In this document: piece after piece, positions 1,127 to 27,705 of the stretch
How positions within the stretch are numbered: the stretch's first letter is position 1
How the letters are laid out: every line of letters begins with the position of its first letter
Origin: Meloidogyne chitwoodi
Taxonomy: Eukaryota > Nematoda > Chromadorea > Rhabditida > Meloidogynidae
Reading direction: 5' to 3'
Length of the DNA: 64,000 nucleotides
NCBI GenBank assembly: GCA_015183035.1
Contig: JACZZP010000024.1
Location: 62,001-126,000, forward strand
The notes under the pieces: model-generated
Databases searched by the model: none
What the model was told of the DNA's origin: nothing
What the model saw: the letters and a program-made list of their open reading frames with translations, nothing else
Program-made: the position numbers and the translations under genes

Positions 1127-2427
1127 GAAAAAGAATCCACAATTTAAATTTATAAATTATTTTGAAAGGAAAAAAATAACTTTAACTTCTAAACAATATT
1201 TTAACCAAAAAAAGTATATATTAATTCAATTAATTAATTATATTTATTTTTTATATATTAGTGTATAACAAAACAAAAAGTACGAGGTTTATGTAAATTT
1301 TTGGGAGCTTAGTTTTGCCTAAGCTAAAAAACACTCTTAGAGAATTTAAAAAATAAAAAAGTGAATTCATGTTGTAGTGAAGGAATAGTTTTATTTATTT
1401 AGGGTAAGCCTGATTTTTGTTGATTCTCTATTTGGAGGTTTATGTCCAATAAAGTATTTGTTATTTTGATGAAAATGAGATAAATTAAATAAAAATAAAT
1501 CTAAAATTATTAGAAAAATAGTAAAGAAAATTAGCTTTATTGACATAAATAAATAAAGGAAATTACTCATGTCTACTAATTATTTTATTTATTATATCTA
1601 TTAGGGATTTTTATACAAATTTATCAATACACAACATTTAAATGAAAAGTATAAATTATTTCAATTAGATAATTACATATATATGTATATATTTTTTATC
1701 AATGTGATTCTTAATTAAAAAAAAATCGAAATTTTTTGGATGCTTATATATCATAAGCTAAAACTTTTATTAGAAATAAAAAATAAGAGCTTTATTATAA
1801 AATCTCTAGATTTAATTAAAAATTTATTAGAGTTCAATAAAATATCAGGAGTTTATTTATAATCAGAATTTTACAAAATTTTGCGATTTTAATTTATTAA
1901 TTAAGCGTGATTATTGTCCCACTTTTTTAAGCGGTCCGACTTGAGCTTGTATTGAAATTTTAAAATTTAAATATCGCTGAACTCCCTTTTCTTAATTCTA
2001 TTAAATTTATTTTTAATTTTTTTAATTTTCTAAAATATAATTTTATATCAAAAATAAAATAATAATACAACAAATTAAGGTAGTCTCTCATATCAAAAAT
2101 AATAATTTTGAAAAATTAAAAAAAAAAATAAAATAAATTGCTAAAAGGTCTAAATATAAAATTAAAAAAATAATTAATATATTTTGTCAAAATGTCCTTT
2201 CTTTTTTGTCATCAATTTTTAATTTAATTAATTGTTCCATTATTCGTTAAGGCTTCCTCTTTTACGCAATTCTCCATTGCTTAAAATAGCGGTTCATTCT
2301 AAAAAATTACAATATTTTTATTTTAATTATTTTTAAATTTATTTAACCAATCCTTAGTTAATGACTTGATTTTTATTATCTATTTATTTATTTATAATTT
2401 ATTTTTAAATAAATTAACCTACAGAAT
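1127..2427. other. AT-rich intergenic DNA
   Basis: No gene is seen. Short dispersed repeats recur here: a segment with inverted AAGC/GCTT arms and a GGTTTATGTAAATTTTTGGG-like lead at about 1290-1330 resembles one at about 720-785 and, more weakly, one at about 1735-1770. Confidence 0.4.
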
Positions 2428-3039
2428 TTAATTTTTGATTATCTTGCTTATTAATTCCATTATTTGTTTTTTCAGTTTATATTTAGCTTTTCCACCTTTC
2501 AGAACATAAGCATGAAGGAAGAAATTAATAAATAGAATTAAATAACTAACTTTAAAAAATAAATAAAAATTAAATTTTAAAATTAATTTTATTTTTACAT
2601 ACCATCCATACCCACAGCAAAAGCATAAACTTTACTTTCTAAATCGCATTTTACCTGAAATATAATTTTTAAAAATTTTTTTATTGATACTTATTTATCC
2701 GCAATAGAGTCTCGGATTTATTTAAGAATCTCAGTTGATTTTATTCTTCTGAGACTCAAAGGGGGTATAGGCATACTTATGGTATTTTATTTATTTATTT
2801 AAAAAACTAACATTCTCAACAAAAGTTAGCCAGCCAAGATGTACAAGAATAACAACAGATATTATAAATTGCCATATTTGTATTGTTGTAACAAATTTAG
2901 CAACTGGGCCAGGCACTTTATTTTCATCGAACGCAAAAATAATACTAAAAATGATTATTATTTTTTAAATTCTTTATTGTATAATATTTATTTTAGATTC
3001 AGAATAGACAAGAATTGTCAAGCTGAAAATTTTTTTTCG

Positions 3040-3200
3040 TGGAATTACTGAGAGCAGCCTCGGTAATCACTTAAAATGAGCTTACTCCCCCCTATGTTTT
3101 TTCACTTTACAGAGACCTGTATCTTTGAGTAAAGGAAACTCTATGAATTCTTCCTTACTAAATCTACTCAGTTTTTTAAGAGCTTTCGAATGATAACTCA
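3040..3200. repeat. Diverged partial copy of the foldback element at 44.1-44.8 kb
   Basis: A GGTAATCAC...GAGCTT...CCCCCCTATG...CAG...AGCTTTCGAATGATA order of short matches aligns with 44570-44705. The copy lies in an intron of the ELO gene. It has only one arm, so it is a truncated relic. Confidence 0.5.
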
Positions 3201-5142: not shown

Positions 5143-5267
5143 AGTAGTTAGCCCTAAGGAGAAATTCCCTTTTTTACCGCACTTTCCTGTGGGTATTGAA
5201 GGACACGCCCATATATTTTGTAGAAGAATTATTTTGATATTTGTCGACAACCTAAGGGTTTGGGATG
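5143..5267 (+). repeat. Left terminal inverted repeat of the Polinton
   Basis: This begins AGTAGTTAGCCCTAAGGAG and matches the reverse complement of 27580-27705 with about six substitutions and a one-base difference in a T run. It includes a CACGCCCATATATTTTG segment, which read outward is a GGGCGTG box beside a TATA-like stretch, like the promoters inside the element. Confidence 0.9.
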
Positions 5268-5492
5268 TTTCAACCTTTACATTTCATGTTTTTCTTTTTA
5301 TGTTTGCTGACATCCTAGAGGCTCCGCCCTTTTTTAAAAATAATTTATTTTTTATTTTAAAAAAAAAGTAAATTTTTTAAAAAATAAAAGGTGTGAATTT
5401 TTAAAAATTGTTTTTTTTAACTATACTAAAAAAAACAATAAAAAATATTAGTATATAAGTAAAAAAAAAAAGAAGTTAATATTAAATTAAAA
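5268..5492 (+). promoter_or_regulatory. Leader and TATA-type promoter of the first element gene
   Basis: Non-coding AT-rich DNA with a CTCCGCCC box near 5320 and a GTATATAAG TATA-like box at about 5451-5459, some 35 bases before the first start codon. The promoter role is inferred from spacing and from similar boxes before other genes of the element. Confidence 0.4.
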
Positions 5493-6792: not shown

Positions 6793-7452
6793 ATGGAATC
6801 ATTAATATTCAAAGATAAAGATTTAAAATTCAAACTTCCTTTTGGTATGATTATTTCTGGACCTAGTTCCAGTGGTAAAAGTACATTTTTATTAAAATTT
6901 ATTTCTGAAGCAACAGACTTAATTGACCCTAAACCTAAAAGTATTCTTTATTGTTTTGGTGAGATGAGTAATATTGTACCTATTCTTCAAAAATCTGGAA
7001 TTAGTGTTTTTTCGGGTGTTCCTCCTGAAGATTATATTAAGAAATATCAAAAACCTTTACTTTTAATTTTTGACGACTTGCTTCTTTCAATTGATGAAAA
7101 ATATTTGTCAGAATTATTTACAAAAAAATCTCATCATCAAAATTTTGCTATAGTTTTTGTAACACAAAATTTATTTGAACGTAAAATAAAAGTTGCTAGA
7201 CAAAATGCTCAATATATTATAATAATGCGTTCTCCAAACTCTGTTTTAGCTGTACGAAACATTGGAGTACAATTATTTCCAAGAAAACTTGATTATTTCA
7301 TTGATGCGTATAGACAAGCAACAAATAAACCTTATGGTTATTTGGTTATTGATATGCATGCTTCATCAGATCCTGAGTTACGTCTTCGTACAAGTATATT
7401 TAAAGACGACGAAGAAAAAATAATTTTTATTCCAAAAAACGGTCAAGTATAA
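6793..7452 (+). CDS. DNA-packaging ATPase, FtsK/HerA (A32-like) superfamily
   Basis: This is a 219-aa P-loop ATPase of the kind Polintons and large DNA viruses use to pump the genome into the capsid. Walker A is GPSSSGKST (residues 23-31). Walker B is LLLIFDDLLL (89-98). A conserved strand ending in VFVTQN follows after residue 120 and would supply the sensor residue. The length fits the compact ATPases of the group. The start follows a 48-base AT-rich spacer, and the next gene begins 6 bases after the stop. The reading frame is intact. Confidence 0.92.
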   Translation: MESLIFKDKDLKFKLPFGMIISGPSSSGKSTFLLKFISEATDLIDPKPKSILYCFGEMSNIVPILQKSGISVFSGVPPEDYIKKYQKPLLLIFDDLLLSIDEKYLSELFTKKSHHQNFAIVFVTQNLFERKIKVARQNAQYIIIMRSPNSVLAVRNIGVQLFPRKLDYFIDAYRQATNKPYGYLVIDMHASSDPELRLRTSIFKDDEEKIIFIPKNGQV

Positions 7453-8917: not shown

Positions 8918-10003
8918 ATGGCAGATTATACAAAATTTCTTGAAGATCTATACAATAATCCGGAGTCTCCTGCAGCTTTCTCAGGTATTGATCGACTTTG
9001 GTATGAAGCGCGCAAGACTCTCAAACATATTCCTAGGTCAGCTGTTCAACATTATTTAGAAGGGCATAGAACTTATACTCTTATGCGTCCTAAACGAATT
9101 CATTTTAAAAGATCTAAAACTGTGGCAGCAGGTTTTATGACAGATGTTCAAGTTGATTTGGCAGATTTCCAACAATTAGCAAGACATAATAAAGGAAATC
9201 GATATTTATTATTAGGAATTGATGTTCTTTCTAAACGAGTTTTTGGAGTTCCTGTAAAATCAAAAAAGACAGATGATATGCTTGACGGTTTTAAACAGTT
9301 ATTTACTCAAATGCCTATGAAACCTCAAAGAATTTTCTCAGATAAAGGAACGGAATTTAAAAATAAACAAATGAAAGATTTTTTTGAAAAAGAAGGGATA
9401 GAAAAACATGAAGCTACACATTCTATTGTTAAAGCATCAGTTGCTGAGAGAGCAATTCGTAATGTTAAACAACGTCTTTATAGAAATTTTGCTCAAAAAA
9501 ATACTTTAAACTGGATAGAAATTATTAATAAAATACTAACAGGGATAAATAAAGCAAAAAGTAGAATTCATGGAATGCGTCCAATGGATGTTAATTTTAA
9601 TAATGCTCAAAAAGTTTGGAAAAGAATTTATGGAAATATATTTTCTTCAAATAAAAAAATAAAACCAAAATTTAAAAAAGATGATTTTGTTCGAATGAGT
9701 GTAAATAAAGGAACATTTGAAAAAGGGTACAACCCAAATTGGGGAGACGAGATACTTCAAGTAGACAAAATTAAAGAACAACCTTTACCTATTCAATACA
9801 AGGTTAGTGATGATAAAGGTGAAAAATTTAAAGGTTCGTTTTATAATGAAGAATTGACAAAAGTTAGAAAAGATGCAGATACAGAATATAGAATTGAAAA
9901 GGTTATACGAAAACGAAAAAGATCAGATGGAACTTTTGAACTTTTAGTTAAATTTATAGGATACCCAGAACGAGAATGGATACATGAGACACAATTAGTA
10001 TAA
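8918..10003 (+). CDS. int: Polinton integrase, retroviral type (DD35E) with chromodomain-like C-terminus
   Basis: This enzyme joins the 3' ends of the element's DNA to the target. The rve core shows Asp80 (VDLADF), Asp142 (SDKGTEF) and Glu177 (SVAERAIRN); Asp142 and Glu177 are 35 residues apart, as required. The C-terminal 50 residues (about 312-361) read as a chromodomain: YRIEKVIRKRKR, then LLVKFIGYPEREWI, a feature of Polinton integrases that may steer insertion to chromatin. The N-terminal region (1-75) is typical for the family. The frame is intact. It is flanked by a 12-base upstream gap and a 42-base gap before the penton-like gene. Confidence 0.93.
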   Translation: MADYTKFLEDLYNNPESPAAFSGIDRLWYEARKTLKHIPRSAVQHYLEGHRTYTLMRPKRIHFKRSKTVAAGFMTDVQVDLADFQQLARHNKGNRYLLLGIDVLSKRVFGVPVKSKKTDDMLDGFKQLFTQMPMKPQRIFSDKGTEFKNKQMKDFFEKEGIEKHEATHSIVKASVAERAIRNVKQRLYRNFAQKNTLNWIEIINKILTGINKAKSRIHGMRPMDVNFNNAQKVWKRIYGNIFSSNKKIKPKFKKDDFVRMSVNKGTFEKGYNPNWGDEILQVDKIKEQPLPIQYKVSDDKGEKFKGSFYNEELTKVRKDADTEYRIEKVIRKRKRSDGTFELLVKFIGYPEREWIHETQLV

Positions 10004-12943: not shown

Positions 12944-14271
12944 ATGACATTTCATAAAATAGACAACGATAGTATAAATTCTATAACAAATGCTTTAGAT
13001 TTTTTTCAAATTCCACCTACTAATGTGAGTATTTCGTCATCAAAAGTTTTTGAAATTTTAACAAGCAACCCTCTCACAGATACACCTTATCATTTTAAAA
13101 TACATTCTAGTCAAAATTATATTGATTTATCAAAATGTTATTTATTTACTGAATTTCGTATTCGAAAAGAAAATACAAATGGTCAGCTTATAGATTTAAC
13201 TATTACTGACAATATTTCAACATTACAGCTTATAGGACAAACTTTTATTAACAATATGCGTATAACTATTAACGCTCGTGAAGTTTTTAATGCTAATTCG
13301 TTATATGCTTACAAAACATATTTTTCACATGAACTTTCATTTTCACAAAATGCAAAAAGTTCTCATTTAAACGCTGCTGGGTATTATTTTAATAATACAG
13401 TAAGCCAAGAAAATGGATTAGATTTTCTTGAAAGAAAAAATTTATTTGATAAAAGTAAAACAGCTCAATTCATTGCTAAACTTGACGCAGACCTATTCAA
13501 TCAACCACTTTATTTAATTAATCATTGTGAAATCGATATTGAAATTGTCCCAAACGATTCACGTTTTATTTTATCTCATCTGGAATTCAAAATGCTATGG
13601 ATGTATCAAATAATTATCATTTTGAAGTTGTAAATATGAAACTATATGTAAAAAAAGTAGATTTAATGGATGGTTTGGCTCTTGATATAGCCAAACGACT
13701 TGAAACAAAACCAGCTAGATATTCTATTCGAAAAACTATGATGAAACCACTCTTTATTAGTCAAGGTCGTTATGAATTCAATGCTAATCTTTTTATGGAT
13801 CAAATTCCCCGGCGTATAACATTAGGTCTAGTAGCAAATAAAGATTATGTTGGTGATATTACTCGAAGTCCTTTCAATTTTCAACATTTTAATGTTCGTG
13901 AAATTAGTATAATAGCTAATGGTAGAAATTATCCACAAGCTCCTTATGATTTTAATTATAAAAAAGGTAAATATGTTAGAGCTTTCAACGATATGAATGA
14001 GGCAATAGGGTTTTCAAACTCAAATGAAAGTAACGGAATAACTTATCAACAATATGGCAAGACACATTGTATTTATGTTTTTAATCTAACGAATAGTGGA
14101 GAAGACAATGGTGGAACTTTTGATTTGATTAAAAACGGAACAACAGCTGTAAATATAAAATTCAATGAAGCTGTACCAGAGGGAGGAATTATGCTCATTG
14201 TTATGGGAGAAGCTGATTCACTTATTATGCTTGATAAAAATCGAACTATAGCCAGTGATACAACGATATAA
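12944..14271 (+). pseudogene. mcp: Major capsid protein (double jelly-roll), one frame break
   Basis: This is the main shell protein of the Polinton virion. The N-terminal part reads from the ATG at 12944 to about 13580; the rest continues in another frame to 14271, with the two frames overlapping at 13597-13633. Landmarks fit Polinton capsid proteins: IDLSKCYLFTEFRIRK and FINNMRITINAREVF in the first part, and DLMDGLALDIAKRLETKPAR, MDQIPRRITLGLVAN, FNFQHFNVREISIIANG, NDMNEAIGF and TIASDTTI at the end. A net one-base shift near 13570-13595 (close to a T-rich run) is enough to separate the frames. No intron explains it. It could be a mutation, an assembly indel or, less likely, programmed frameshifting. 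The total coding length (about 440 aa) is normal. Confidence 0.88.
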
Positions 14272-15044: not shown

Positions 15045-15521
15045 ATGAAAAATATTTTGAAAATAATTTTTCTTATTAGAATTTTTATTCCGTCGATTGA
15101 AGGATTACTAACAGGGGGCAGTGTAAAATTAGATGATATTCCAGAATATTCTGAACTTGTAAAATATTATAGAAAAAATACAACAAATATTTCAAGAGAT
15201 CCAATATTATACTCAAAAGAAAAAGTTGTGGCGCCTGTTCCAAATTTTCTTAATTTTCCTTTTGAAAATCTACCTTTGCTTTGCAAAGAAAGCCCACCAG
15301 ACAACAGTATTTATGGACATGTATTTTGTTGGGGAATGATATGTTTATATGCACTTCTTATAGTCAGCTTAATTATATATCAACTACGATCTGTTCTCTG
15401 GTTTAAATTTAAACTTCCAACTGTCAATACTAAACAAGAAAATGTATTCAAGTCAGATAACACAAATTCTGAGATCAAATCCCCACACATCGAAAATATT
15501 TCAAGGATGTTATCCGTGTAA
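15045..15521 (+). CDS. Polinton membrane protein (158 aa)
   Basis: This has a hydrophobic N-terminus (residues 1-21, likely signal peptide or anchor), a Pro/Asn-containing ectodomain, and a strong membrane span at about residues 96-115 (MICLYALLIVSLIIY), followed by a basic boundary and a 40-residue tail. The topology is that of a type I or double-span envelope-type protein. No family is recognised, and it is too short to be one of the known large fusogens. Its 3' end overlaps the protease gene by 80 bases in another frame. Confidence 0.55.
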   Translation: MKNILKIIFLIRIFIPSIEGLLTGGSVKLDDIPEYSELVKYYRKNTTNISRDPILYSKEKVVAPVPNFLNFPFENLPLLCKESPPDNSIYGHVFCWGMICLYALLIVSLIIYQLRSVLWFKFKLPTVNTKQENVFKSDNTNSEIKSPHIENISRMLSV

Positions 15522-15888
15522 TCGTCTACCAAACCCTGCATCTGTTCGAGAAAAAATATTAATTGTTAATTTGGATCCTTTTGGTTATGAAGGTTCACAT
15601 TGGATTATAATTTACATTAACAAAATGAAAGATGTAATATATTTCGATAGTTTAGCTCTTGAAACAAGTATTTGTATGATTAATACATTTCTTAAAAATT
15701 TTTCTAAAATTATAAAAAATATAAAACCTTATCAATCCCCTTATTCTAATACTTGTGCTCATCATTGTATTTCTTTTATTTATTTTTTCTCTAAAGGTTA
15801 TAATTTTGACAAATATTTAGAATTGTTAGACAATGAATTAAATCCTGATTTATTCGTATTAAATGTTTTAAATAAAATAATAAATTAA
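15442..15888 (+). CDS. pro: Adenain-type cysteine protease (virion maturation)
   Basis: This 148-aa protease would cut capsid precursors. The expected catalytic set is visible in order: His53 (GSHWIII), Asp69 (YFDS), Gln98 and Cys105 seven residues later (QSPYSNTC), as in adenovirus-type proteases. The N-terminal FQGCYPCNRLP and LIVNLDP blocks also fit. The start overlaps the upstream membrane-protein gene by 80 bases; the first in-frame ATG gives the full family domain, so I kept it. The frame is intact. Confidence 0.9.
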   Translation: MYSSQITQILRSNPHTSKIFQGCYPCNRLPNPASVREKILIVNLDPFGYEGSHWIIIYINKMKDVIYFDSLALETSICMINTFLKNFSKIIKNIKPYQSPYSNTCAHHCISFIYFFSKGYNFDKYLELLDNELNPDLFVLNVLNKIIN

Positions 15889-16624: not shown

Positions 16625-19600
16625 ATGCAAAATTCAAAATTTTCGCGTACTTTTTATATTTCAAATATTCTTGGACTCGAACAACATGGGTCTGGGAATA
16701 ATACAACAAATAAATATGTTGAACGTTTAAATGATTCAATTTGGCATAATACTAAATTTAATGTTGTAAAGACTTATTCAAAGTTTTCAATTAAAGATGT
16801 ACCAAATGATCCAGAATCACTTCTTGCTGGTTAATTTTTTTAATAAAACAAAGTTTAATTTATTTTTAGGAATATTTCAATTTTGTGTTGACGAAGCATT
16901 AGAACATGCTAATTCTAAAAATATTTCCCCAGACCAAATTGCGTGTACTTTGAGTAGTGAAATGTTGGAATATGATATCTGGATTCCTTTTAGGTTTATT
17001 TTTTCAAATTATTATTAATTAACGAAAAATTTTTTTAAAGCAATTTAACTAATAATACTGTCGACGCTATGATTAATAGATGTCAACATATTGCACAAAG
17101 TAATAAACAAAATGATGCAACTTTTTGGGGGACGCCTTTTAATATTACTGTAACAACTCTAAATAAAACAAAATTCAAAAAACGTCGTCTAGTTGGAGGA
17201 GCAGCAAGAAAAATACCAAAAGTCCAACACCAAATTAATAAGAGCTCCCTCATGAAATTCGACAGCCCTGACAATAAAAATCATTGTTTATTTTTCGCTT
17301 TAATTGCTTCTCTTGTGCAAAATATTTTTAATTGGTCAACAAAAAATTTTTTCAATTATATTCACAACTTGAAAGGAATGTCTGGTCGTTTCCAATCTGA
17401 CACTTATCAAATTATGAATAAAGTTGGAGCTGATTTTGGTTTAAATGAATATGATGCATTTATTTGGATACCAAGAATTGTTGATTATTGGAATAATATC
17501 ACATGTAAAGGACAATATATTGTAAAAGTATTTGTCTTTGAGGATAGAGGTAATTATAAACCAGAATTTGAATATGGCCCAAATGATTATAATTTACCAA
17601 TTTCTCTTTATTTTAACGACAATGAAAAACATTTTTATGCTGTGAAAAAAAGGGTAGCCTATTTGGAAAAAGATACTGTTTTTCATGTAAATCAGTATTC
17701 AGTCAAGCTCAACTACATTCAATGTCTTGTCTTGGTCGATGTAAAAATTGTTCATGTGTTGGGCCTTCATATCCTTGCCAACCAGACAATATTTTTTAAA
17801 ACATTGTAATTTATGTTTCAAAACTTTTAACAACAAAGATTGTTATGAACATCATATTAAATCTGGATTTTGTAACAATTCTAAAAAATGTTATAATTGT
17901 GGAGTTATTTGGAACGTTAAAGACAATACACGAAACGGAAGGAAAGGTCATGTATGCACAGAAAAATATTGTACAACCTGTAGCGACTATCATGATCCAA
18001 AGCGAGGATGTTATATTAAACCTTTAGAATTAAAAGAATATGAACCTTATCGACTTATTGCTTTTGATTTTGAAACAACACAAATGTCTGCAATACATGA
18101 ACCTAACTTTATTGCAGCAAAGGTTACATGTCAATTTTGTATTCTAAATGATAATAGTAATTCTTGCAAATTTTGTGGTCAACATCGTATTATAACATTC
18201 TCCCAACAACCTTTCAATAAAACAACTGTTGATAAAATGATAATAGATGAAAATCCTCTTTCGTCTTTTGTTGATTGGCTTATAAATGATCTACCCCAAA
18301 ATTGTGACACTTTTGCTTTTTCACATTTTGGTGGTAAATTTGACATGGTTATCGCTTTAAATGAACTCGTCAAAAAAGGACTTACACCTCAAATGTTAAA
18401 AAAAGGAAATAAAATGTATGAAATGAAGATAAAGGCAAAAAAGAATAGTATAATATTCCGTGACAGCTTCAATTTAATGCCAATGCCATTAGCTGCACTA
18501 GTATCAGCTTTCGATCTAAAGGTAGAAGATAAACCATTCTTCCCTCATACGGCAAATAACCCAGAAAATTATGGCAAAGAAATTTTTCCAACAACATCAG
18601 AATATCTTGCTGACGGAATGATGCCTGAAAAAAGAAAAATGTTTGACTCTTGGTACAATCAAAACAAAAATATTCCTTTTGTTCTTAATGAAGCTTTGGC
18701 TAGTTATTGTACAAATGATGTTGAAATATTAATGGCTTCTCTAATTACTTTCCAAAGAGAATTTTTTGAAGTATATTTTTTTTATTAAATTAAATTAATT
18801 ATTTATAATTAAGGTTACTAAAAGAGAAACTGGTGAAAGAGCAGCATCAACTAAATGTCATAAAGGAATTGATGTGCTTCGAGAATCAATGACCATCGCT
18901 TCAGCCTGTATGAGACATTTTCGAACAAATCATCTTAAAGAACAACATCTAGCACTTGTACCTGAACGAGGATATGATATTGTTGATGGTAATCAAAGTC
19001 TTCTTGCTCTTCGATTTTTAAAATGGTATTCTGAACAATTTGATGTTATTATACAAACTGTTCATTCAAAAGAAGGAGAAAAAAAGTATATATCTAATAA
19101 TAAAATTTTAATAAATAAAAATTTTTTTTAGAATTGGAAAATATCAACTTGATGGATATGTAGAAAGTGAAAAATATGGTCTTGAAATAAATGGTTGTGT
19201 TTGGCATGGGTGTCCTAAATGTTATCCTAATGATAACATCCTCATGCCAAATGGAAAAACAGCTGGTTATTTGAGAGAACAAGATAAAAATAGGTTAATA
19301 TTTTTTTAAAATAATATAATTAAAAAATTTTTTTAGAATGGAATTTATCAAGACCCAAATTGATCGTGTTGATGTATATTGGGAATGTGATATTTATAAA
19401 ATGTTGGAAAAGGATAAAGAAATGCGCAACAAATTTTACAATTATATTGACGATGGACCAATTGATATAAGAAATTGTTTTAATGGAGGTCGCACTGGTC
19501 CCTTAAAACTTTTTCATGAAGTTAAACCTGGAGAGAAAATATCGTATTATGATGTTACTTCACTGTATCCTTTTATTAATGTAACAACTGAATACCCTGT

Positions 19601-21072
19601 TGGACATCCAGATCTTCATGTAATTAATCAAAATGTAAAATGGACTTGTTCAAATGATAATATTTACAATTTGGCTATTTTAAAAGTTTTTATTATTCCT
19701 CCAAGAAAAATTGACGTTCCAGTTTTACCTATGAAATTAGAAAAAGATGGACGGCTATTATTTCCTCTTTGTTCAACTTGCGCGTATGAAATTTAAAAAA
19801 TTATTTTTTAATATAATAAATAATTTAGAAAAATGTATCCTGAAGGACAAGTCTATGAAAATTATAAATGTGAACATAATGATGAGGAAAGAGGATGGGT
19901 CAGCATTTGTACATCCATAGAATTAAATTATGCCTTGAATGAAGGATATGTTGTTACAAAACTTTATCGTGTATTGGAATATACAAAAAGTGACAACAAT
20001 CTATTTCGCCCATATATTTCTGAATTCATGGCGACAAAAATTCATTCATCTGGTTTTGATAAAGAAATTAAAAATAATGTTAAAGCTGAAGAATTATTTA
20101 TTAAAGAATGTTTTGAAAATTTTGGAATCAAAATTGAAAGAAGTAAAATGATCCCAAATAAAGGAAGAAGAACTCAAGCAAAATTAATGTTAAATAATCT
20201 TTGTATGTTTTTTTCTTTTAACTTTTAAATACTTTTATTTATTAAATAGGGGGTCGTTTTTCTTTGCGAAATTTTGGTCTTTCACAATGCATAATTACTG
20301 ATGATCCAGAAGAGTATCAAAAATATGTAGAAGATAAAAGTATTACTCTTACAAGTGTTGATCAATTGACATCTGAAATTATGTTAATTGGTTTTATGAA
20401 GAAAAAAGAATGGATTGAAGAACATGATTGTTCAAATATTGGTAATTTTTTGAAAAAAAATATTTGAATTAAATAATATTTTTAGTTATTTCTCTTTGGA
20501 CTACTTCTGCTGCCCGTCTTCATTTACTTAAAGCAATGCAACAAGTTGTTCGGTGTAAAGGGTGTACACTTTTGTATACAGGTAAATTTTAATTGATGAT
20601 AAAAATTAAAAATTTTTCAGACACCGATTCTTTAATATTTGCTCATCCTGAAGAATTAAATCCTTTGGAGCTAGGACCACATCTCGGACAGTTTACAAAC
20701 GAATACCCAGAACATCAAATATTAGAATATGTTTCGGGTGGTGCAAAACAATATGGACTTAAATTAAAAAGAATTAATAATAATGATAATCTCGAACATG
20801 AATATGTCCTTAAAGTTCGAGGAATGACTTTAAATTATGATGTAATCAATAATCAAGGACTACGTTATGAAACATTTAAAAAACAAGTTATAAAATATGC
20901 TAAAACTGGAATAATTGAAGCAGTAGATATTCTTTATCCAAAATTCATTTGTCCCTCAATTAAAAATTTAAATGTATCAACTAAATCTCGCAACAAAATA
21001 TATAAACCTTTCATAGGAAAGGGTGTTGTGCGCCCCTCAGATTTTTCTGTTCTAAACTTTGGTCATATTTAA
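16625..21072 (+). pseudogene. polB: Family B DNA polymerase (protein-primed type), multi-exon, frame breaks
   Basis: This is the replication enzyme of the element. Exons: 16625-16829, 16870-16993, 17041-18770 (broken), 18814-19085, 19132-19293, 19337-19783, 19829-20202, 20250-20441, 20486-20581 and 20621-21072. Introns are 39-50 nt. Motifs in order: a DNKNHCLFFAL segment and a Cys/His cluster in the N-terminal region; the exonuclease set AFDFETT, SHFGGKFDM and YCTNDVEIL; polymerase motif A, YDVTSLYPF; motif B, NNL joined across an intron to GRFSL; motif C, YTDTDSL. Between about 17680 and 17800 the coding frame changes twice (the Cys-rich CKNCSC stretch reads in a third frame, and a T6 run is one break point). 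The remaining exons are intact. Disabled as assembled, or affected by indel errors. Confidence 0.9.
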
Positions 21073-21140: not shown

Positions 21141-21686
21141 TCACCATCCATTACAATAATTATTTGGATTTAAAATATCATTTTCCTCATCTTCTTCGTC
21201 TACTATTACCAATTTATTATCATTATTTTTTATATGATTTTTAATCATTGTCGAAGTATAATTTTCACAAAAATTTGTCATTATTTTTTCTTCATCTTCT
21301 TCTTTAATAAGTTCTAGAAGCTCCATAGGATAATAACGATTTTCTTTAAAATTTCCATTTTTAGATGAGAATTTTTGTATAATACAATGTAGATAAGGAT
21401 AATTAAGTCGAATTCTATGTTTTGCATAATAATGTGCTGCAACACAAATATTGAAAGGTTTTGAAAGTCTTCCATAAGCTTGGACTATATTTGCTCCTTC
21501 ATTTGACAGACCACCAATTATAAATTTATTTTTAAGTCCGTTGCGATCTTTATAAGTTGTTTCTACTTTTTGACCTTCAAGTACTTTTAAAATAATTTTT
21601 TGATTTTCAGGATGATTAAGAATATCTCTAAGTGATTTGACATTGCAAGATAAAATATTTGCACATTCATCACTGACAAGAACCAT
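21141..21686 (-). CDS. Free-standing PAZ-domain protein (Argonaute-derived), 181 aa
   Basis: The PAZ domain of Argonaute and Dicer binds the 3' end of small RNAs. Residues about 36-127 carry the Argonaute PAZ pattern: LEGQKVETTYKDRNGLKNKF, IIGGLSNEGAN, a middle loop, then CVAAHYYAKHRIRLNYPYL-HC and RYYPMELLELI. TSTMIK at 144-149 matches the beginning of the linker that follows PAZ in Argonautes. There is no N domain, MID or PIWI, so it cannot slice. It is intronless and ends in an acidic tail (DEEDEEND). It converges on PolB (68 bases between stops) and shares a divergent GGGCGG/TATA promoter with 21884-22179. Fold assignment is confident; a role as a small-RNA-binding silencing modulator is inference. 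Confidence 0.85.
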   Translation of the reverse strand: MVLVSDECANILSCNVKSLRDILNHPENQKIILKVLEGQKVETTYKDRNGLKNKFIIGGLSNEGANIVQAYGRLSKPFNICVAAHYYAKHRIRLNYPYLHCIIQKFSSKNGNFKENRYYPMELLELIKEEDEEKIMTNFCENYTSTMIKNHIKNNDNKLVIVDEEDEENDILNPNNYCNGW

Positions 21687-21883
21687 TTTTTTTCAAAAAT
21701 TTTTTTTAGATATGAATTAAAGATGATTAATTATGCGAGTTTAAATACTAGATTTTAAGCTCCGCCCCTTTTTACATCTAAATAAATAGTGTAAAATGTT
21801 TACTCAGAAGCTCATTCTAACATTTTTTAATAAAACTAAAAATATTTTATCTTTAAAAAAATATTTTTCAAACAAATTAAAAA
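21687..21883. promoter_or_regulatory. Divergent promoter between the PAZ gene and the next small gene
   Basis: TCCGCCCC at 21761-21768 is a GGGGCGGA box for the minus strand, with a TATTTAAAC box (about 21740-21748) between it and the PAZ start. AAATAAATAGTGTAAAA (about 21780-21796) is a candidate TATA region for the plus-strand gene. Confidence 0.45.
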
Positions 21884-22179
21884 ATGGAAAATATTGGTGA
21901 AATTAATTCTAATGTTCCTGTTTTAAATTTTGATAACAAATCTACTATTCGCGAACCATTGTGGAAATTATTTCGTGGAAAATTTTTGTTTACGTTTACT
22001 TTATGTGCAGGTTTATTTAGTAAATTTGATTATTAAAATTATTTTTAAATTTTTTAGATTGTCGAGATCGTATTTTCAAGAAAAGTGACAAAGCAGTTCG
22101 CAATGAGAATCGTATCGAAGTCAAGTTTGACATGGCGAAGATTGTTTCAAAAAGAATTGTAGAGTTTCAGACATTATAA
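21884..22179 (+). CDS. Small two-exon protein of the Polinton (82 aa)
   Basis: Exon 1 is 21884-22010, the intron 22011-22057 (47 nt, ends TTTTTTAG), exon 2 22058-22179. The middle reads REPLWKLFRGKFLFTFTLCA then DCRDRIFKKSDK: an aromatic/basic segment and a charged helix with two nearby Cys. No family is recognised. It is divergent from the PAZ gene and may be co-regulated with it. Confidence 0.5.
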
Positions 22180-22739: not shown

Positions 22740-23460
22740 TTATTTTATTCATGAATATGTCAAAATAAAAAATTATTTTATTCAAAACATTTTTTTTGAC
22801 ATGCCAAGAAAATGTTATGAATAATTTAATTTATTCAAGAAATGTCAAATTAACAAAATAATTGAAATTATGAAAAATTAATTTATTCAGGAAAATGTCA
22901 AATTAACAAAATAATTGAAATTATGAAAAATTAATTTATTCAGGAAAATGTCAAATTAACAAAATAATTGAAATTATGAAAAATTAATTTATTCAGGAAA
23001 ATGTCAAATTAACAAAATAATTGAAATTATGAAAAAATAAATTAATCATGAAATGTCAAAAATAAAAATTTTTGAAATATTGAAAAAATTAATTTATTCA
23101 TAACATTTCTTGACATGTCAAAATAAAAAAGTAAAAATTTTTTGAAATTTTAAAAAATAATTTATTCATGAACATTTCAAAATAAAAAAAAAGTAAAAAT
23201 TTTTTTTGAAATATTGAAAAAATAATTTATTCATGAACATGTCAAAATAAAAAAAAAGTAAAAATGTTTTGAAAATTGAAGAAATAATTTATTCATGAAC
23301 ATGTCAAAATAAAAAAGTAAAAATTTTTTGAAATATTGAAAAAATAATTTATTCATAACATTTCTTTGACATGTCAAAATAAAAAATAAAAATTTTTTGA
23401 AATATTGAAAAATAATTTATTCATGAACATGTCAAAAACAAAAAATTAATTATTAGAAAT
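22740..23460. repeat. Two families of about 55-60-bp tandem repeats
   Basis: About 22850-23035: four near-identical copies of a unit with TTTATTCAGGAAAATGTCAAA and TAACAAAATAATTGAAATTA. About 23040-23460: about seven looser copies built around TTATTCATGAACATGTCAAAA, then AAAAAGTAAAAATTTTTTG. Both contain an ATTCATGAACATGT-like near-palindrome. Nothing coding. Confidence 0.75.
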
Positions 23461-23654
23461 TTTGAAAAAAAGTCAATCAAACATTTATTCATATATGTTT
23501 GTGACATATATGAATAATTTATATTTTTCAGTTTAAATTTAGACATGTAATATATTTTTTAATAAAATTTTTCTAAGGGGCTATCTTTTTTATTAAATAA
23601 TTATGAAGTTTTCTTCATAAATTTTATGTTAAGATCAAAAATTAATTTTAATAA

Positions 23655-24310: not shown

Positions 24311-26068
24311 ATGTTACTTTGTGTTTATCGACAGTTTCCTTATTCATTTCTAAAAAGAACACAATATTTACTTCAAACGAGATGTTTTTGTGAGATTAAA
24401 GAAAAGTCTTTTGAAAAATTGACTCATAAAGGAATGGTTGTTTCTACTTTAAAGGAAATTAATCCAGGTTGTTTTTTGACCATTTTTAGTTAGTTTTCTT
24501 GTAGAAGAACATCGTGTTTCACTTACTCCATTGGCTGCCTGTACTTTACTTAAACGTGGTATTAATGTTAAGATTGAGAGTGGAGCAGGTGTATTAGCTT
24601 CAATTTCTGACGAGGAATTTGCAAGAACAGGCGCAAAGATTGTCAACAAAAAAGAAGCAGTTGCGGCTGATATCTTGCTAAAAGTTTGCTTTTTTACTAA
24701 TTTAGAATAAGAATGATTCTGTGATATTTAGGTTCGTTGCCTAGAAATGGATGAAGTTTCTTTATTCCGACCTAATTCTACTCTAATTTCTTTTATTTTT
24801 CCTGAAAATAATAAAACAGTTGTAGATTTATTAGTTGGACTTAAAATGACTGTTTTTGTAATGGACAAAATACCACAAATATCGCGAGCTCAGGTTTCTT
24901 TTATTACATTCTTTTAAACATTAATAATAGGTTTTTGATACCCTTAGTTCTATGGCTAATATTGTTGGATATAAAGCAGTAATTGAGACAGCAAACAGTT
25001 ATGGAAAATTTTTCGCAGGACAAATTACTGCTGCGGGGAAGGTTCCACCGGCAAAAGTGCTTGTTGTTGGAGGAGATGTTGCTGGATTAAGTAATTATTT
25101 TAAAATTAAAAACATCATTTATCAAACATTTTTCAGGTGCAATTGCAACAGCAAAAAATTTGGGTGCGATTGTTAAAGATTTTGACACTAGAACTGATGT
25201 TAAAGAACAAGTTCAATCACTTGTAGCTGAATTTTTGGAGGTTTTTTTTTTAAAAAAGTATTTTTAATATTTCATTTTTAAAGATAAAATTGAAAGAATC
25301 TGGCGAAGGTTCTGATGGTTATGCAAAAGAAATGAGTCCTGAGTTTATTGCTGCTGAAATGGAGCTTTTTAGACAACAATGTCGAGATGTTGACGTTATA
25401 ATTAGTACAGCAACAATTCCTGGGAAAAAAGCTCCCGTTCTCTTCACTAAAGTTATTTTTTCTAATTTGATTTGTCTAAATATAAATTATAGGAAATGAT
25501 TTCATTAATGAAACCAGGCTCTGTTGTTGTTGATTTGGTAGCAGAACCAGGAGGCATTTTTGAAACAACAAGACCTGGAGAAGTTTATACAAACGATAAT
25601 GGGGTTCTTCATATTGGATACAAACAAATGCCTAATCGTCTTGCTGGGCAAAGTTCAGTTTTATATGCTAACAATATAACCAAATTTTTGTTGGCAATTG
25701 GTGACCAAAAAGAGAACTTTTTCATTGATTTGAAAGTATTTTTTTAATTTCTTTTTAACTTTCTATTTTTTATAAGGATGAAGTTGTTCGTGGATCAATC
25801 ATTTTACATAATGGAACTCTTTTATGGTCTCCTCCTGTTGTTGCTCAACCATCTCCTACTACTCAACCAAAATCAAATGTTGAGGTAGAGGTGATTATAC
25901 CTAAAGAAGAAAGTCATTTTATTAAAAATTTGAAAAAGGTTTCACTCTATGCCGGAGGTTTTATTTTATTTTTTAATTAATTTAAAATTTTAGCGATTGG
26001 ATCCACCAATTTACTTGGATATGTTAGTCCAAATATGGCATTTACTCAAACTATGACCACTTTTTCTG
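24311..26068 (+). CDS. nnt-1: 5' half of a mitochondrial NAD(P) transhydrogenase gene, inside the Polinton
   Basis: Full NNT is an inner-membrane proton-pumping enzyme with an NAD-binding domain (dI), a membrane domain (dII) and an NADP-binding domain (dIII). Nine exons are seen: 24311-24467, 24505-24683, 24732-24893, 24931-25090, 25137-25240, 25284-25451, 25493-25735, 25777-25957 and 25994-26068. They encode a basic mitochondrial-type leader, the AlaDH/PNT N-terminal block (KEIN joined to [12 protein letters not shown]), the Rossmann block [11 protein letters not shown], and the [16 protein letters not shown] block. They stop after the first membrane span of dII ([15 protein letters not shown]) at a donor site. 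All dI exons are open, about 476 codons. The rest of dII and all of dIII are absent; a stop is met soon after 26068. The gene keeps its introns, so genomic DNA was captured, or rearranged into the element. Confidence 0.88.
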
Positions 26069-27293: not shown

Positions 27294-27579
27294 TGTTCAC
27301 AAGAAGCATTTTTTCAATAACTACCACAAGAATTTTTTTTATTATTCACAATAAGAAAAAATCACAAAAAACATTTTTTTTTCAAACTAACTATTTTTTA
27401 AAGAATAACCGCACGAACATTTTTGTTCACTACTTTGTCTTTTTTAGAATTTTATCATTTTTTATTGGTGTAAAAGATAAATAAAAAATTTTTTTTTTAA
27501 TTCTTAATAAGAAAAAGGGGCATGTTTTTTTTTTTTATCACACTTTTCAACACCTTTTGATTTATAAAAACGGATAGAG

Positions 27580-27705
27580 CATCCCAAACCTTTAGGCTGT
27601 CGGCAAACATCAAAATAATTTTTCTACAAAATATATGGGCGTGTCCTTCAATACCCACAGGAATGTGCGGTAAAAAAAGGGAATTTCTCCTTAGGGCTAA
27701 CTACT
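27580..27705 (-). repeat. Right terminal inverted repeat of the Polinton
   Basis: This is the reverse complement of the left repeat at 5143-5267, with about six substitutions and one indel. It ends ...GGGCTAACTACT at 27705 and is followed by AGAACT. Confidence 0.9.

Follow-up and report, generated by a model that had tools for sequence, protein, structure and literature searches.

PAZ-Only Genes in Polintons of Meloidogyne chitwoodi, With a Possible Role in Binding Small-RNA Ends

A Polinton of Meloidogyne chitwoodi carries an intact gene for an isolated PAZ domain, and this gene belongs to a family that is found close to most of the genome's Polinton integrases and evolves under purifying selection, which goes beyond what the first-pass annotation of this DNA had proposed. 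The domain may well derive from a single capture out of an Argonaute and have been retained to bind the 3′ ends of small RNAs and blunt silencing. The evidence comes from the window, that is, the whole stretch of 64,000 nucleotides that was analysed, from the rest of the genome (47.5 Mb, 30 contigs), and from database and literature searches.

The Carrier Polinton

The element (5143–27705 of the window) is enclosed by terminal inverted repeats of about 136 bp, the left one at 5143..5278 (plus strand) and the right one at 27569..27705 (minus strand). Identity of the window with copies on C11, C22, and C25 stops at the element ends, on one or both sides (C11 and C22 at the left repeat, C22 and C25 at the right one), and these copies have exact 6-bp target-site duplications, AGAACT in C11, CACGTA in C22, and GTTAAT in C25. 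Since the compared stretches of the copies are 99.2–100% identical, the element has probably moved recently.

We call the element a Polinton because three of its genes, all on the plus strand, score above their Pfam cut-offs: a packaging-type ATPase (6793..7452; Pox_A32, 25.9 bits, cut-off 22.8), an integrase (8918..10003; rve, 33.9 bits, cut-off 32.6), and PolB, a gene in several pieces (17069..21072; DNA_pol_B_2, 57.2 and 47.8 bits, cut-off 25.8). Together with the terminal repeats, these genes bear out the Polinton setting that had been suggested for the PAZ gene. A capsid candidate of two overlapping frames (12944..14271, plus strand) has no Pfam match above cut-off and no match among solved structures; its second frame recurs, 77% identical, beside PAZ in loci L008 and L018. 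The protease candidate (15442..15888, plus strand) has sub-threshold Pfam matches only, to C48 and C5 peptidases.

The flanks of the window copy are unlike each other: the left one, with GTTAAT, is that of the C25 insertion, and the right one, with AGAACT, is that of the C11 insertion. The copy on C16 has the same mixed flanks, and both cases stem either from recombination between two insertions or from chimeric contigs. At 24931–25744, the Polinton also contains exons of a gene resembling NAD(P) transhydrogenase (Pfam AlaDh_PNT_C over its cut-off); the same pieces are present in the five element copies, a separate match is found at C27:2413956-2414694, and the exons look like captured host sequence.

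The PAZ-Only Gene of the Window

The gene lies at 21141..21686 on the minus strand and consists of an ATG-initiated, intronless frame of 181 codons followed by a stop, in agreement with the first-pass annotation. Its 181-aa product, a member of subfamily A (see below), was compared with Pfam-A and gave a significant match to PAZ (PF02170; residues 28–130, corresponding to 21297..21605 on the minus strand; E 5.4e-8, 33.3 bits, cut-off 28.8), which confirms the domain identity proposed earlier; two further rows up to E 1 were both under their cut-offs. The PAZ domain stands alone, as had been stated: Pfam finds no N, MID, or PIWI domain and no nuclease or other partner domain in the protein. The structure model is confident across the PAZ domain, the predicted fold of residues 1–130 matches the AGO2 PAZ domain in a structure search, and the top structure matches are RNA-bound AGO PAZ structures. 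Likewise, the best sequence matches among solved structures are Argonaute PAZ domains (1si2, E 1e-4).

The domain is followed by a disordered acidic tail (residues 131–181, pLDDT below 50; 21144..21296, minus strand) with Trp as the last residue, the net charge being +7 for the domain part and −9 for the tail. The stretch TSTMIK in this region had been taken for a remnant of the Argonaute linker, and it does align to human AGO1. However, the likeness is probably due to chance, since the other 36 members of alignment A1 (37 sequences of subfamilies A and B, the window protein included) are without TSTMIK and the model is disordered there (131–181).

Both neighbours are separate genes, as expected from the earlier reading. 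Downstream, the last PolB piece, whose stop ends at 21072, is convergent with the PAZ gene, their tails lying 68 bp apart, and on the other side a divergent small frame starts at 21884. The adjoining sequence does not continue into a full host Argonaute, given that the gene has 100% identity among five element copies and stands beside Polinton genes in divergent elements.

Three other origins of the frame were rejected. A chance open frame is contradicted by 36 aligned relatives (28–67% identity) and by dN/dS values far below 1; a Dicer PAZ domain, by the listed sequence and structure matches, which are Argonautes or PIWI proteins; and a fragment of a host Argonaute, by the recurrence of the gene beside Polinton genes and a frame with no other Argonaute domain.

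A TATA-like sequence, GTATTTAAA (21740..21748, minus strand), starts 62 bp before the ATG of the PAZ gene. The motif GTATWWAAR occurs 44–69 bp before the ATG in seven out of nine PAZ genes tested, against 0.34 expected by chance, an optimistic figure because the motif was picked after inspecting those upstream stretches. The proposed similarity to promoters of other genes of the element holds only in part, as the motif is upstream of just four out of ten other frames in the window. The GGGGCGGAGC motif before the PAZ gene occurs once in the window. Within the Polinton, AT-rich direct and inverted repeats occupy 22790–23470, on the upstream side of the minus-strand PAZ gene.

The PAZ Family in the Genome

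A search of the same genome with the window protein gave matches in 34 places, namely, 33 of the Polinton type, 31 of them without a stop in the match, and one host worm-type Argonaute, L040 (E 3.1e-4, 32% identity), which is the sole non-Polinton match. Within a flank of 1.5 kb, most divergent copies lie beside PolB, protease, or capsid-candidate genes; no such gene is seen in this flank of L019 and L024–L027. In a wider flank, L024 lies beside an ATPase and an integrase, L030 beside PolB, and PolB matches are found at most 4 kb from L019 and L024–L027. Weak Pfam matches led to a third subfamily, C, for which the search gave 54 rows; 20 loci, one row each, were kept, to the exclusion of rows for second exons, for the host Argonaute, or for places already in subfamilies A and B (for three of the 20, the match is weak and partial, E 1e-6 to 2e-4). 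The total is thus 53 PAZ loci in three subfamilies.

The integrase search gave 72 rows; the removal of eight weak rows in long frames, which are probably other integrases, and the merging of nine fragments left 55 loci, 52 of them with at least 300 aa. A PAZ gene lies within 15 kb of 41 of the 52 long integrase loci, the zones within this distance of a PAZ making up 3.0% of the genome, with nearness counted by distance, which does not prove membership of one element. Ten of the 11 integrase loci without PAZ also lack, up to a distance of 20 kb, any match to the PolB C-terminus; they may be remnants, and the most diverged PolB genes may escape the search. For PolB itself, 39 rows were reduced to 37 C-terminal loci by merging two. 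All genome counts are lower bounds, since the searches score best candidates only.

In four places (C6:113269-116369, C6:135463-138563, C12:2248829-2254963, and C26:1781604-1787717), pairs of PolB ends and PAZ genes are arranged almost as mirror images, as if the Polintons were inverted dimers or the assembly had been folded back.

Subfamilies, Tails, and Origin

At E 0.01, Pfam recognizes PAZ in all 37 sequences of alignment A1 and in 16 out of 17 members of subfamily C; two members of B and two of C, when scored singly, reach 19.3–25.2 bits, under the curated cut-off of 28.8. The subfamilies differ in their C-terminal parts. In subfamily A, the domain part is basic (net charge +3 to +16) and is followed by an acidic tail, which ends in Trp in 24 out of 28 database proteins no shorter than 150 aa (the window protein included) and in 12 out of 12 sequences tested from the same genome. 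The possibility that a Gly–Trp pair is the unit conserved in the tail was discarded, the terminal Trp alone being conserved and the preceding Gly not. The tail of subfamily B is Ser/Thr-rich and near-neutral, and most members end in a segment of the type GILWxEIEGxPNQWEKRN; in L024, L026, L030, and proteins P0030–P0039, this conserved segment with two Trp residues follows a Ser/Thr-rich linker. Subfamily C is almost tail-less, ending soon after the domain, and several of its copies are split across two frames, as if by an intron; its structure model (pLDDT 40) is too poor to judge the fold.

Profiles of A/B and C align with a probability of 96% over 68 columns. In a tree of 41 PAZ sequences, subfamilies A, B, and C are split from 11 host and reference PAZ domains with support 87/85, the host rows being exon pieces, some of them on long branches (according to a warning of the tool); L040, comprising exons of a larger Argonaute-like gene, falls on the host side. 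At one column, Gly is present in all 30 Polinton rows and in none of the 11 host and reference rows. The tree favors a single origin of the three subfamilies with moderate support.

Among host-type genes, L048 at 2663–3055 and L049 at 2056–2406 (minus strand), as well as L065, have an F-box-like frame that continues into sequence of the Argonaute type; a PAZ exon, over the Pfam cut-off in all three, follows after about 1 kb. The F-box itself is over its cut-off in L048 only, and the fusion is a reading of the frames.

Selection and the 3′-End Pocket

Whole-gene dN/dS is 0.11–0.25 in ten out of 11 pairs of copies, three of the 11 being rough estimates with dS near or above 1; the eleventh pair has dN/dS 0.55 at a dS of just 0.019. 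The pairs window gene/L006, window gene/L009, and L024/L030 are left out of this set.

Ten alignment columns match residues ascribed to the 3′-end pocket of AGO2, among which 315 and 316 are named as pocket residues in PMC10643408 (in excerpt). The mean entropy of these columns is 0.59, and that of the domain as a whole (130 residues) is 1.26; comparison with random columns gives P 0.003. His occupies the AGO2 His316 column in all 30 Polinton rows and in 36 out of 37 sequences of A1, as well as in human AGO2 and host locus L067. Other positions differ from AGO2. In A1, Tyr replaces His271 in 37 out of 37 sequences (subfamilies A and B), His replaces Tyr311 in 32 (and in most of subfamily A), Phe replaces Tyr279 in 29, and Ala replaces Phe294 in 34, the next column being Tyr or Phe in all 37. 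In subfamily C, positions 271 and 311 are occupied by His and Tyr, respectively, and an aromatic residue is absent from 294–295.

The comparison with the Argonaute PAZ structure that had been suggested upholds the fold; the pocket columns are conserved within the family, with several residues that differ from AGO. The pocket columns being conserved despite real substitutions, an altered pocket seems to be maintained and not to be in decay, and the Polinton PAZ would probably bind RNA ends.

Relatives Outside the Genome

In the databases searched, named relatives come from Meloidogyne, Globodera, and Heterodera only (several matches are unnamed), and the nearest named proteins of the window protein are from Meloidogyne. 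They are annotated as uncharacterized or PAZ domain-containing. The protein searches admitted 0.55–1.75 times the query length, and thus a longer relative could not appear. Searches of viral contigs and phage records yielded nothing informative; PHROGs gave one row at E 0.075, and the viral structure library gave 239 matches up to E 10, none of them at 0.001. The gene was not found in Polintons of other organisms in the databases searched.

The literature searched contains no account of a lone-PAZ Polinton gene, which is in line with the first-pass annotation, whose author knew of none; the main paper on nematode Polintons (Jeong et al., 2023) lies outside that search and could mention the gene. 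Papers containing both Polinton and PAZ domain use them, in the excerpts available, in unrelated ways, and the word PAZ is absent from a 2024 review-type preprint on Polinton-related viruses (PMC11071308). No silencing suppressor of the PAZ type is among the matches listed in the literature search.

Discussion

PAZ domains are known to bind small RNAs at their 3′ ends. The Polinton proteins share with Argonaute PAZ domains (PF02170; human AGO1 and AGO2, Drosophila Ago1) the profile, the predicted fold, the conserved columns of the 3′ pocket, and the AGO2-like His316, and differ from them in standing alone, in several changed pocket residues, in the family-wide Gly, and in having tails of their own. 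The reading we tentatively prefer is that a Polinton captured PAZ once from an Argonaute, and that the free PAZ made by the element would grip free 3′ ends of host small RNAs. Guides so held would be kept from host Argonautes by competition for small RNAs, and the element would benefit through weaker RNA silencing; in subfamily A, the acidic Trp-ended tail might also touch a partner protein, which could be an Argonaute.

This anti-silencing role by end binding is supported by the PAZ profile and fold, the retention of the gene near integrases and PolB, the dN/dS values, and the conservation of the pocket. The confinement of named relatives in the searched databases to one group of plant-parasitic nematodes suits a host-directed function. 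Worm-type Argonautes of the nematode Ascaris bind small RNAs that target repeats, and secondary siRNAs measuring 22–26 nt occur in Globodera pallida (both according to an excerpt of PMC8837657). There is also a precedent for transposon anti-silencing: VANC of Arabidopsis VANDAL transposons is a transposon-encoded anti-silencing protein; it differs in binding DNA motifs and removing methylation, and the excerpted text mentions no PAZ (PMC5735166).

Several observations weaken the anti-silencing role. Some of the pocket residues differ from AGO, and the Arg315/His316 pair of the AGO2 pocket goes with a lower 3′-end affinity than Lys/Tyr of the paralogues (PMC10643408, in excerpt). Counter-defence genes often evolve fast, and here dN/dS shows constraint. 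The single capture is weakened by the moderate support of the single-origin branch (87/85). Finally, the gene adjoins PolB in the window, and the tail of subfamily A resembles phage SSB tails.

The latter two features lead to the strongest alternative, which we nevertheless consider rather unlikely, that PAZ is a replication protein which, during protein-primed replication by PolB, binds single-stranded DNA or else the displaced strand at its free 3′ end, with a tail that would contact the polymerase as in T7 gp2.5. It is consistent with the presence of PAZ within 4 kb of 34 out of 37 PolB C-terminal loci and with the structure of subfamily A, where, as in SSBs of the T7 gp2.5 type, a basic nucleic-acid-binding domain is joined to a disordered acidic tail, Trp-ended in 24 out of 28 and 12 out of 12 sequences of the two sets. 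In SSB tails of this type, the last residue is aromatic. Acidic C-terminal tails are characteristic of prokaryotic and phage SSBs, and that of T7 gp2.5 has been implicated in polymerase contact (PMC5686142, in excerpt). On the other hand, these SSBs have an OB fold (same excerpt), whereas the structure matches listed here are PAZ domains; the tails of subfamily B are near neutral, and C is almost tail-less. The lack of the gene from Polintons of other organisms in the databases searched also argues against an essential part in replication.

The terminal Trp of subfamily A allows another explanation, in our view distinctly improbable, by which the protein acts through protein contacts, replacing the Argonaute PAZ in host complexes or using this Trp as an Argonaute hook, and so disturbs guide loading without holding RNA. 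Plant viruses provide parallels, as the ipomovirus suppressor P1, which also acts on the silencing pathway, binds AGO1 via WG/GW motifs, and 2b has been suggested to act through the AGO1 PAZ (PMC2904775, in excerpt). However, P1 needs several WG/GW motifs according to the same excerpt, and here there is one Trp, with no conserved Gly before it and no tail at all in subfamily C, while the conserved columns include the pocket. A use of small RNAs by PAZ for purposes of the element itself, for example marking transcripts or particles or steering host complexes to rival elements, would fit the PAZ fold, the conserved pocket columns, and the stable retention seen near integrases and in dN/dS, but is very improbable for a gene with no MID, PIWI, or nuclease partner domain.

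Returning to the anti-silencing role, its fuller form is put forward still more cautiously: the PAZ protein could possibly be an Argonaute-derived decoy that intercepts small RNAs, with its gene retained as standard near most Polinton integrases through three diverged subfamilies. These Polintons would then be the first mobile element known that counters silencing by means of an Argonaute fragment.

The ways in which long-lived DNA transposons and virus-like elements of animals resist silencing by small RNAs are a largely open question, on which the PAZ gene bears with a one-domain Argonaute-type product, a small protein directly testable for RNA-end binding. If the replication function were true instead, it would be an unexpected reuse of the PAZ domain in DNA replication. 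The gene also provides a marker for Polintons of root-knot nematodes and, perhaps, of cyst nematodes.
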